DNA of 64,000 nt from assembly GCA_902763085.1 (NCBI GenBank), contig CACWQW010000013.1:1-64000 (forward strand), in the 5' to 3' direction. The stretch comes from Dongibacter bovis (GTDB taxonomy: Bacteria; Bacillota; Negativicutes; Selenomonadales; Selenomonadaceae). Position 1 is the first letter of the stretch, and each line of letters begins with the position of its first letter. Positions 6,935 to 10,506 of this stretch are shown piece after piece. Below the pieces are notes generated by a model that saw only the letters and a program-made list of their open reading frames with translations, was not told where the DNA came from and ran no database searches. Made by a program: the position numbers and the translations under genes.

Positions 6935-6977
6935 AAAAAGAAACGAGCCGGCTTCTTCGCGAAGCCGACCCGTTTCC
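6935..6977 (-). terminator. Intrinsic terminator of the hydrogenase operon
   Basis: A long stem with arms GAAACGGGTCGGCTTC and GAAGCCGGCTCGTTTC (minus strand), a very short loop, then TTTTT. It lies about 15 bases past the stop of the HybB-like gene. Confidence 0.85.
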
Positions 6978-6991
6978 TTAGGAAAGACTGC

Positions 6992-8173
6992 TTAGAGCAA
7001 GTCTGTTTTCTGCAAGATGTGATGCTGCGTCACGCGGCGCGAGCCGAGCACGTTGAAGTTCTCCACGATGATGCCGTAGGCGAGGCAGCCGATGGAGACG
7101 AGCCCGATGCTCACGGCGAACTCGAATGGCGAGGGGAAGTAATCACCCGACTTGTACATGGCGGTGAACACGCAGTTCATGCGGTTGAGCACGACGCCTG
7201 CGACGACGAGCCAGGAGTAGACGAGCACGCCGTACTTCCGATGCGCGAGCGGGCTGAAGATGATGAAGAGCGGGACGAGGATGCCGCCGACCATCTCGAG
7301 CAGGTAGAGGTTGCTCTGCATGGATCCCTGGAATACGAGCCCCCACTGACCCTGTCGCGTGACGTCGATGAGCTTGAGCGCGAGATAGACGAGCATGATG
7401 CGGCCGCCGACGCGCGTGAGCTGCAGCATGATGTGCGGATCGATCCTATGCGCGTAGTTGCGCCGCGCGAGGTCCGACTCCACGCAGACCATCGCCGAGC
7501 CGACGAAGAACGAGGAGATGAGGAAGTAGAGCGGCAGCAGCGGGCTCCACCAAAGCGGGAACATCTTGCTCTTCGCGATGAGGAAGAGGCCGCCGAGCGA
7601 TGACTGGTGCATCATCGGGAAGATCAGGCCGATGATGACGAGGAACGGCAGTGCCTTGAGCACGTAGGGATGCAGGAACTTGAACATGCGCTCCGTGATG
7701 ACCTCGTGGAACTCGAGCGTGAGGATCGTCGTGTAGATGGAGATGCACCAAAAGACCTCGAAGAGCACCGAGGTGTAGCCCCAGGAAACGAACGGGCGCC
7801 AGAAATGAGGCCAGAGGCCGATGTCAAGGAACAGCCCCGCCATGACGAGCAGATACCCGAGCAGGGAAGTGAGCAGCGCACTGCGGGCGACGACGCCATA
7901 TTTCTGATACTTGAACCCGCCGACGAGCAGCGCCGTCGAGTAGCCGCCGCCCGCGAGCGCGACGCCGCAGAGCACGTCAAACGAGATCCAGAGGCCCCAG
8001 GGCGTCTCATCCGTGAGGTTCGTGATGTAGCGGAAGCCCGTGAGCAGACGCGTGAGCGCCACGCAGCCCATGAAGGCGACGAGCAGGAGCAGCACGACGC
8101 GCGCGGGCGTGATGGTGAAATCCCAGCCGAGGATGCGGTAGCAGCGATACATCTGCGGCAGCTTGATCTTCAT
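6992..8173 (-). CDS. NrfD/HybB-family membrane subunit of the hydrogenase
   Basis: Polytopic membrane protein of 393 residues with about ten hydrophobic helices and the NrfD/PsrC fold pattern (for example PWGLWISFDVLCGVALAGGG near residue 55). In HybB and NrfD proteins this subunit carries electrons between periplasmic iron-sulfur partners and the menaquinone pool. Its ATG overlaps the stop of the ferredoxin gene (ATGA). A longer reading frame starting inside that gene is rejected because GGAAGG precedes this ATG directly. Together with the two upstream genes it should make a quinone-coupled respiratory hydrogenase. Confidence 0.88.
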   Translation of the reverse strand: MKIKLPQMYRCYRILGWDFTITPARVVLLLLVAFMGCVALTRLLTGFRYITNLTDETPWGLWISFDVLCGVALAGGGYSTALLVGGFKYQKYGVVARSALLTSLLGYLLVMAGLFLDIGLWPHFWRPFVSWGYTSVLFEVFWCISIYTTILTLEFHEVITERMFKFLHPYVLKALPFLVIIGLIFPMMHQSSLGGLFLIAKSKMFPLWWSPLLPLYFLISSFFVGSAMVCVESDLARRNYAHRIDPHIMLQLTRVGGRIMLVYLALKLIDVTRQGQWGLVFQGSMQSNLYLLEMVGGILVPLFIIFSPLAHRKYGVLVYSWLVVAGVVLNRMNCVFTAMYKSGDYFPSPFEFAVSIGLVSIGCLAYGIIVENFNVLGSRRVTQHHILQKTDLL

Positions 8174-8967
8174 ATCCTTCCATCCCCTTCCTCTTTCTTC
8201 TCCGGCGGCTTCTTCTCGTTCTTTGCTCGCCGGTGATGATAGTAGGACATCCCTGCGAGGAACAGCCCCCATGCCGCCGCGAGGAACGGCACCTTCGAGA
8301 GATAGGCATGCGTGTACGTGCTCGGCGGGATCTCCTCGAGTCCCATCTTAAAGCCGAGCTTCTCGAACGGCTGGTCGGAGATGTAGAGCCACTGCGTGCC
8401 GCCGAGCTCCTTCTCGCCGTAGACGTAGTCCACATAGTGCGGGTTCGCCGCGATGATCTCATGCGCCCGCGCGATGAGCGCGTCGCGCTCGCCGTAGACG
8501 AGTGCGCCCGTCGGGCAGGCGCTCACGCAGGCGGGCGCGTCCCCGTCCTTGAGCCGACCCACGCAAAACTCGCACTTCGTCACGAGCGGCAGCGGCTCAT
8601 CCCACTGATAGCGCGGGATCTCAAACGGACAGGCGATCATGCAGTAGCGGCAGCCCACGCAGAGCTCCGGCACGTAGACGACGGCATGCGTGTCGGGATC
8701 GACGCGCAGCGCCTTGGAGAAGCAGGCGGAGGCACACGAGGGCTCCAGGCAGTGCAGGCACTGCTTCTTCACGAAGCGCGTGTACGCCTTGCCGTTCTCC
8801 CCCTCGACGTGCTTCTCCTGGATCACCGTCCAGTTGTCATCGTTGAGGTCCTTTTCCTTCTGCCGGCGGCTCTTCTCTTTGCCGTAGGGCAGCTTATTCC
8901 AGAGTTTGCACGCGACGCTGCAGCTCTCGCAGCCGATGCATTTCGTCAAATCTACCAAGACAGCCAT
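8170..8967 (-). CDS. HybA-like four-cluster ferredoxin subunit
   Basis: Electron-transfer subunit of 265 residues with four [4Fe-4S] sites: CIGCESCSVAC near residue 10, CLHCLEPSCASAC near 70, CVGCRYCMIAC near 104 and CEFC...CVSACPTGA near 132-155. One C-terminal hydrophobic helix (about 224-245) is followed by a charged tail, as in HybA, where it anchors the protein to the membrane. No signal peptide is visible, so export would have to be by hitchhiking with the Tat-targeted hydrogenase; that is inference. It starts 15 bases after the hydrogenase gene and overlaps the HybB-like gene. Confidence 0.9.
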   Translation of the reverse strand: MAVLVDLTKCIGCESCSVACKLWNKLPYGKEKSRRQKEKDLNDDNWTVIQEKHVEGENGKAYTRFVKKQCLHCLEPSCASACFSKALRVDPDTHAVVYVPELCVGCRYCMIACPFEIPRYQWDEPLPLVTKCEFCVGRLKDGDAPACVSACPTGALVYGERDALIARAHEIIAANPHYVDYVYGEKELGGTQWLYISDQPFEKLGFKMGLEEIPPSTYTHAYLSKVPFLAAAWGLFLAGMSYYHHRRAKNEKKPPEKKEEGDGRI

Positions 8968-8982
8968 GGAAGCCCCTCCTCA

Positions 8983-10506
8983 TCACGCCTGTGACTGCGT
9001 CTCACGGTCGAACAGGCGGCCGCTGCGGTCCTCGAAATGCGTATGCAGGAATTTCTCTGCGCGCGCGGAGAGCGGTGCGCCGTAGAACTCGCGGTAGAGC
9101 GCCTGCACCTCGCCGTTCTCGTGGCTCATGCGCCGCGGCGCTCCCTTGTCCTCCGCGTAGAGTGCCTCCATGCGCTTCCTGCGCACCGCCTCGTCTGCGG
9201 GGAACTCGCTCTTCGGCTGCCCACCGCCGCCGAGGCAGCCGCCAGGGCACGCCATGAACTCGATGAACTGCCAGCGGCTCCTCCCGGTGCGGCGCACCTC
9301 GTCGAGCACGTGTCGCGCCGCCGCCATGCCGCTCACGACGGCGACATGCACCGTACCGACGCCCGGCACGGATGCTGCGGCCTCCTTGATGGAGGTGAGT
9401 CCGCGCACCGCCTGCCAGGAGAGGAGATCTGCCGGCGGCTGCTGCTTCGTCGCGAAATAGTAGAGCGACCGCACCGCCGCCTCCGTCACGCCGCCCGTCG
9501 CCGCGAAGATGCGCCCTGCACCCGAGCTCTCGCCGAGCACGGAGTCGTATCCAGACGGCGAGAGCGCGGAAAAATCGATGCCGCGGCGCTTGATGAGGCG
9601 CGCGAGCTCCCGCGTCGTCAGCACGTAGTCGACGTCGACGCGGCCATCGACGCCGAGCTCCTCGCGCTGCGCCTCGAACTTCTTCGCCGTGCAGGGCATG
9701 ATGGAGACCGTGACGATGTTTTCAGGCGCGATACCCTGCTTCTCCGCGTAGTACGACTTGACCGTCGCGCCGAGCATGGCGGCCGGCGACTTGCAGGTGG
9801 AAAGGTGCTCCATGAGGTCAGGGTAGAAATACTCGCAGAACTTGACCCAGCCGGGACAGCACGAGGTGAAATGCGGCAGCTCCGCCTGCTTCTTCGTCAG
9901 GCGCATGAGCGCCTCGCTCGCCTCCTCCATGATCGTGATGTCCGCGCCCGTGCAGGTGTCGAACACCGCGTCGAACCCGAGCGCCCGGAGCGCTGCGACC
10001 TGCTGCGCGCTCACGATGGCGCCGGGCGCGAGGCCGAACTCCTCGCCGAGAGAAACCTTCGTCGCGGGCGCCGTCTGCACGACGACGTATTTCTCATCGT
10101 CCGCGAGCGCCGCCTCGACCTCCTCTACGGCTGGGCGCTCCGTGATCGCTCCCGTCGGGCACCAGAGCGTGCACTGCCCGCAGCCGATGCACGCCGTTTC
10201 ATCCTTGATGGGCAGCGGATAGTAGCCGTGGACGCTCATCACTTTCTGACACGCCTCGATGCACTGGCCGCAGAGAATGCATTTCTCATCGTCGCGCACG
10301 ATGGCGGCGTTGTCCGGCGCGATGGCGACGCGCCCCTTGAGCTGCGCCGGGAAATCGCCACGCCCGTGATACTGGTCCGGCATCCAGCCGTCGCCGCCCG
10401 ACTGCTTCTCCTCACTCGCACAGCCAGAAGCCAGGACGCCGAGACCGAACAGGCTCGTACCTGAGGCGAGCTTCAAAAAATCCCTGCGCGAAATATTCTG
10501 TGCCAT
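8983..10506 (-). CDS. Periplasmic Tat-exported [FeFe]-hydrogenase, probable lipoprotein
   Basis: Catalytic hydrogenase of 507 residues. The N-terminus has a twin-arginine signal SRRDFLKLASG and then LASGC, which fits a lipobox with Cys29 as the lipidated residue. Two [4Fe-4S] sites follow (Cys 76/79/82/86 and 106/109/112/116). All three H-cluster motifs are present: TSCCPGW (214-220), MPCTAKKFEAQREE (270 on) and MACPGGCLGGGGQP (418-431). A small-subunit-like region lies at the C-terminus. The ATG is preferred over a GTG three codons earlier because AAAGG lies 9 bases before it. HydE, HydF and HydG maturases are not in the window. Uptake or evolution cannot be decided from sequence. Confidence 0.93.
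   Translation of the reverse strand: MAQNISRRDFLKLASGTSLFGLGVLASGCASEEKQSGGDGWMPDQYHGRGDFPAQLKGRVAIAPDNAAIVRDDEKCILCGQCIEACQKVMSVHGYYPLPIKDETACIGCGQCTLWCPTGAITERPAVEEVEAALADDEKYVVVQTAPATKVSLGEEFGLAPGAIVSAQQVAALRALGFDAVFDTCTGADITIMEEASEALMRLTKKQAELPHFTSCCPGWVKFCEYFYPDLMEHLSTCKSPAAMLGATVKSYYAEKQGIAPENIVTVSIMPCTAKKFEAQREELGVDGRVDVDYVLTTRELARLIKRRGIDFSALSPSGYDSVLGESSGAGRIFAATGGVTEAAVRSLYYFATKQQPPADLLSWQAVRGLTSIKEAAASVPGVGTVHVAVVSGMAAARHVLDEVRRTGRSRWQFIEFMACPGGCLGGGGQPKSEFPADEAVRRKRMEALYAEDKGAPRRMSHENGEVQALYREFYGAPLSARAEKFLHTHFEDRSGRLFDRETQSQA

Follow-up and report, generated by a model that had tools for sequence, protein, structure and literature searches.

Dongibacter bovis, of the Selenomonadaceae-type Negativicutes, probably encodes a menaquinone-linked, outward-facing [FeFe]-hydrogenase complex (probability about 0.7) whose catalytic subunit is predicted to be a Tat-exported lipoprotein. 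The architecture is not new: the same trimer is known from papers on the genomes and the surface proteome of Desulfotomaculum. What is gained is a place in the Negativicutes for a candidate quinone-linked, outward-facing respiratory [FeFe]-hydrogenase complex. A maturation gap weighs more than the complex itself: HydA, HydE and HydF are kept without HydG, the enzyme accepted as supplying the H-cluster with its CO and CN ligands.

The operon and its catalytic subunit

The window, which is the whole stretch of 64,000 nucleotides analysed, carries on its minus strand an operon (6992-10506) of hydA, hybA/hmcB-like and hybB/hmcC-like genes, in that order. The features considered here are:

8983..10506, minus strand: hydA, predicted exported [FeFe]-hydrogenase catalytic subunit, 507 aa (profile matches and alignment)
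10420..10506, minus strand: Tat signal peptide MAQNISRRDFLKLASGTSLFGLGVLASG and predicted lipidated Cys29 (codon 10420-10422), with SRR and GC invariant in a 12-row alignment
10159..10281, minus strand: eight Cys for two [4Fe-4S] clusters, C76, C79, C82, C86, C106, C109, C112 and C116 (invariant columns)
9235..9861, minus strand: H-cluster ligands C217, C272, C420 and C424 and proton-transfer Cys C216 (invariant columns)
8170..8967, minus strand: hybA/hmcB-like four-cluster ferredoxin subunit (profile matches, alignment)
6992..8173, minus strand: hybB/hmcC-like NrfD-fold integral membrane subunit, 393 aa (NrfD PF03916, E 1.2e-14)
6937..6979, minus strand: intrinsic-terminator-like hairpin and T-run after the last gene (-31.1 kcal/mol, z -5.67)

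The three genes are probably cotranscribed, as judged from the 15-base gap between the HydA and HybA genes, the 4-base overlap (ATGA) between the HybA and HybB genes and the terminal hairpin. The hairpin was absent from the list given by the consensus terminator scan. The hydA start (ATG at 10506) is preceded by AAAGGGTG. Comparison within the genus gave dN/dS values of about 0.06-0.27 for the HydA, HybA and HybB genes, and all motifs are kept in distant relatives, which rules out chance.

HydA consists of a domain for two [4Fe-4S] clusters, an H-cluster domain and a fused small-subunit domain, with Pfam matches to PF02906 (E 1.9e-90) and PF02256 (E 7.7e-20). It contains the H-cluster motifs TSCCPGW, MPCTAK and MACPGGC and scored 456.4 bits against the group A model TIGR02512 (cut-off 405.95). 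By profile score and the three motifs, HydA is a group A [FeFe]-hydrogenase. The roles of the H-cluster ligands and C216 were assigned by homology to solved [FeFe]-hydrogenases, and invariance of the HydA residues was scored in the 12-row alignment. Residues 64-498 align with the fused Desulfovibrio desulfuricans periplasmic HydAB (PDB 9gbu), and bifurcating HydA1 proteins align over a similar span; HydA is without the N-terminal [2Fe-2S] part that the bifurcating enzymes have. HydA shares the two accessory clusters, the H-cluster domain and the small-subunit sequence with the Desulfovibrio enzyme, but the latter is soluble and made of two chains, whereas HydA is a single fused polypeptide that has a lipobox and comes with fixed membrane partners.

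The N-terminus of HydA has the features expected of a Tat-exported lipoprotein: a twin-arginine motif (S6-R7-R8-x-F-L-K, read as SRRDFLK), a hydrophobic stretch and an LASGC lipobox ending in the conserved Cys29, in a genome that encodes TatC, a TatA-type protein and Lgt. All 25 Tat-HydA sequences inspected (15 plus 10) retained the hydrophobic stretch, Gly-Cys and a twin arginine in the form SRR or TRR; they came from Negativicutes, Desulfotomaculum-type Clostridia and some metagenome assemblies. Lipidation at Cys29 would be the simplest reading of the conserved Cys. Alternatively, HydA could be held in the same complex by an uncleaved Tat N-terminal helix, as was predicted for the D. ruminis homologue in the paper on that genome (PMC3569383), and the Ala at position -3 of the D. 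bovis lipobox, in place of Leu, Ile or Val, is not the commonest residue there. The residue at -3 varies among the Tat-HydA relatives. We regard the uncleaved helix as improbable: several relatives have the canonical LAGC, Gly-Cys closes the hydrophobic stretch in 25 of 25 sequences, and Lgt is encoded in the genome. The coordinates and motifs that the earlier note gave for the three genes were correct, and so was its description of a twin-arginine signal and lipobox on the [FeFe] subunit; the Tat genes, whose absence would have counted against it, are present.

Partner subunits and electron flow

The HybA-like ferredoxin contains 16 Cys, and its first cluster motif lies right at the start, with no signal peptide of its own. 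By sequence reading and alignment, its C-terminus has a hydrophobic stretch with basic residues after it; the stretch fell below the threshold of a 19-residue hydropathy scan. The closest solved relative is Escherichia coli FdnH (PDB 1kqf_B, E 9.9e-36). The FdnGHI complex likewise has a four-cluster subunit with a C-terminal helix and no signal, carried by a Tat-exported catalytic subunit, but its catalysis is Mo- and formate-based and its membrane subunit is a haem b protein and not of the NrfD type. The HybB-like subunit was modelled with ten long helices (mean pLDDT 71.8; about 72 for the HydA and HybB models), and this model matches ActC, the quinone-interacting subunit of alternative complex III, with a TM-score of about 0.6-0.7.

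A four-cluster ferredoxin and an NrfD-type membrane protein thus stand beside HydA, as the earlier note had described. Its naming of them as HybA/HybB-type partners holds as far as relatedness goes, but HmcB and HmcC fit equally well or better and all four equivalog cut-offs were missed: the partners scored 206 and 243 bits against HybA and HybB (cut-offs 263 and 450) and 270.5 and 245.4 bits against HmcB and HmcC (cut-offs 420 and 550). By these scores, the partner subunits are related to the Hyb and Hmc families and are members of neither. HmcB and HmcC of the Desulfovibrio Hmc complex are the best curated matches of the two partners, although the scores are below the cut-offs and the operon is without the multihaem cytochrome HmcA. 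E. coli hydrogenase-2 (HybOABC) also combines a HybA-like ferredoxin, a HybB-like NrfD subunit and an exported catalytic part, but its catalytic subunits are of the [NiFe] type. E. coli HybA bears its own Tat signal, unlike the D. bovis ferredoxin.

A mechanism can be proposed from this arrangement. HydA would fold and gain its metal clusters in the cytoplasm and then cross the membrane by Tat, probably taking the signal-less ferredoxin with it, as FdnG carries FdnH, and it would be anchored via a lipid on Cys29, as the conserved lipobox suggests. H2 and protons would be interconverted at the H-cluster on the outer face of the membrane. Electrons would pass from the two HydA clusters to the four HybA-like clusters and on to menaquinone, which would probably react in the NrfD-like subunit.

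The link to menaquinone was examined across 60 Negativicutes genomes drawn from the organism's own genus, family and class. MenB of the classical men pathway was above the cut-off in only one of the 60, and the futalosine route was tested instead. A futalosine-pathway gene (PF02621) was found in all 15 genomes with Tat-HydA compared to 21 of the 45 others (36 of 60 overall), a correlation on a small tree with Fisher p = 1e-4 over genomes and 0.0023 over genera. The D. bovis genome encodes an SdhA/FrdA flavoprotein of the Bacillus subtilis type (fumarate/succinate), which is a plausible acceptor route for menaquinone electrons. It also encodes a bifurcating HydABC set; H2 made inside the cell could therefore be oxidised again by the exported enzyme on the outside. 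The likeliest default direction would be H2 uptake, with electrons flowing through menaquinone to fumarate reduction; reverse running to vent surplus electrons may also occur.

That the complex instead works chiefly as an H2 producer, drawing on menaquinol and aided by the membrane potential, seems rather unlikely. Reducing protons to H2 with menaquinol is energetically unfavourable at usual H2 pressures, and quinone-linked hydrogenases of such layout are mostly uptake enzymes. E. coli hydrogenase-2, with its related HybA and HybB, runs in both directions, however, and the homologous D. reducens subunits appeared higher in fermenting cells (PMC4137172).

The view of the earlier note, that this is a respiratory hydrogenase working on the menaquinone pool from the outer side of the membrane, is largely supported by the Tat motif and Cys, the Tat and Lgt genes and the menaquinone gene in 15 of 15 genomes. 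The maturases that such an enzyme would need are found only in part, as described below.

Distribution and known relatives

Tat-HydA was detected in 15 of the 60 Negativicutes genomes, belonging to nine genera, and a HybB-like gene stood beside it in every locus read in this sample. In a few loci of high GC content, antisense frames masked the HybA-like gene from the simple gene picker used. Among the matches listed, HydA was directly followed by both HybA and HybB in Anaerovibrio slackiae, A. lipolyticus and Desulfotruncus alcoholivorax, and in metagenome-assembled genomes (MAGs) of Desulforudis, Gracilibacteraceae, Peptococcaceae (L079), Negativicutes and Selenomonadales. One Tat-HydA contig (L076) showed no partner and ends shortly past the gene. 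A second, from a Peptococcaceae MAG (L078), also lacked a partner though it runs 6 kb further, and is a real exception to the operon arrangement at the search sensitivity used.

In a quick tree of HydA (SH-aLRT support, midpoint root), a branch with 100% support split 22 Tat-HydA rows, their Tat status read from inspected sequences, from 85 other group A sequences. The tree placed D. bovis HydA with the Desulfotruncus and Desulforudis loci, which are related to Desulfotomaculum and hold the same operon. A Tat signal on HydA, an adjoining four-cluster ferredoxin and an NrfD-type gene, the traits of the Desulfotomaculum-type trimer, are all present in D. bovis, and Tat, Gly-Cys and HybA/HybB together provide sequence criteria for finding such complexes.

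Judged from the published descriptions of three species, the Desulfotomaculum Tat-[FeFe]-hydrogenases are trimers of this kind. The Tat motif was reported on the catalytic subunit of the membrane-associated [FeFe]-hydrogenase of D. gibsoniae (Desgi_0926-0928; PMC4148979) and on the catalytic subunits of D. ruminis (Desru_3431-3433 and Desru_0447-0445; PMC3569383). The D. reducens trimer (Dred_0461-0463) comprises a surface-detected 4Fe-4S subunit with one C-terminal helix, a 10-helix cytochrome-b-like subunit and a catalytic subunit, and was proposed to oxidise H2 (PMC4137172). The same work called the catalytic subunit cytoplasmic (PMC4137172), which counts against an outward-facing enzyme. 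These organisms are Gram-positive sulfate reducers, whereas D. bovis belongs to the Selenomonadaceae-type Negativicutes and is without HydG.

Several loci differed in gene number. One genome (G052, L041) has two Tat-HydA/HybA/HybB clusters with an additional HybB in between, and another (G042, L042) has one HydA followed by two HybB genes. A further Tat-HydA (G004:C98:14265-15778) appeared as two overlapping matches, suggesting a frameshift or an assembly error. Selenocysteine in relatives was considered because two matches had an internal TGA, and was rejected: in the one match read on the right strand (G010), the TGA is the normal C-terminal stop.

H-cluster maturation

HydG was not found by profile search in the D. 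bovis genome or in six congeners, some of whose assemblies are 99% complete. Low sensitivity does not account for its absence from the genus, since 30 of the 60 Negativicutes genomes matched HydG at over 420 bits. HydA, HydE, HydF and HydG occurred together in 29 of the 60 genomes, HydA, HydE and HydF without HydG in 20, and HydA with another incomplete set in four. Beyond the 60-genome sample, HydG was present in seven of eight Tat-HydA genomes (named or MAG) among the matches listed. In two relatives the operon is immediately preceded by maturase genes, HydE-HydG-HydF in G027 and HydG-HydF in G010. A diverged HydG in D. bovis was considered and rejected; the best match in the genome is ThiH-like, lies in a thiazole (thiS/thiG/thiF-like) cluster and leaves the HydG C-terminal domain uncovered. 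A search for a replacement maturase revealed no other recurrent radical-SAM gene near HydE or HydF.

HydF is intact in D. bovis, and HydE was above the cut-off in all seven genomes of the genus. In the D. bovis hydE (L061 6175-7192, minus strand; G000:C19), 66 bases are missing in frame when the gene is compared with that of congener G005, and the protein thereby loses 22 residues, among them two of its three radical-SAM Cys. This deletion may be real or an assembly error, the latter because the assembly is 88% complete and in 104 contigs. The full set of HydE, HydF and HydG, which would lend support to a group A assignment, is thus not found in D. bovis. The earlier note had held that absence of the maturases would speak against it, and here the outcome is divided: HydF is intact, but HydG is missing genus-wide and HydE is damaged in the assembly. 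Given this gap, the complex of the D. bovis strain is only putatively active.

Without HydG and with a damaged HydE, the D. bovis strain might make no H-cluster at all, and HydA would then be an exported, inactive iron-sulfur protein or a gene in decay. The missing HydG and the loss of two radical-SAM Cys favour such a relic. Against it, the genes for HydA, HybA and HybB remain intact, and purifying selection acts on them throughout the genus; the congeners inspected have an intact HydE, HydF is intact in D. bovis itself and the deletion may come from the fragmented assembly. On this evidence we think a relic unlikely. It is conceivable, at somewhat less than even odds, that this genus, together with roughly one third of the Negativicutes sampled, builds functional H-clusters without HydG, using an unrecognised source of CO and CN, for an exported respiratory [FeFe]-hydrogenase. 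An isolate with HydA, HydE and HydF but no HydG would make the maturation question directly testable. Such a gap was already known as an oddity, and the present genomes extend it to the Negativicutes: in Clostridium acetogens, the absence of HydG alongside HydE and HydF was noted earlier, and low activation by HydE and HydF alone was cited (PMC9431212).

Two other [FeFe]-hydrogenase proteins have unusual fusions. In G039, whose genome is also without HydG, one open frame (L180 4275-6713) joins phosphate acetyltransferase to an [FeFe]-hydrogenase whose TSCCPxW motif reads TSACPSW, with Ala at the position of the proton-transfer Cys. In D. bovis, a second protein (L068 5742-7535; G000:C44) joins an [FeFe]-hydrogenase domain to a GGDEF diguanylate cyclase domain and is possibly an H2 or redox sensor that makes c-di-GMP.
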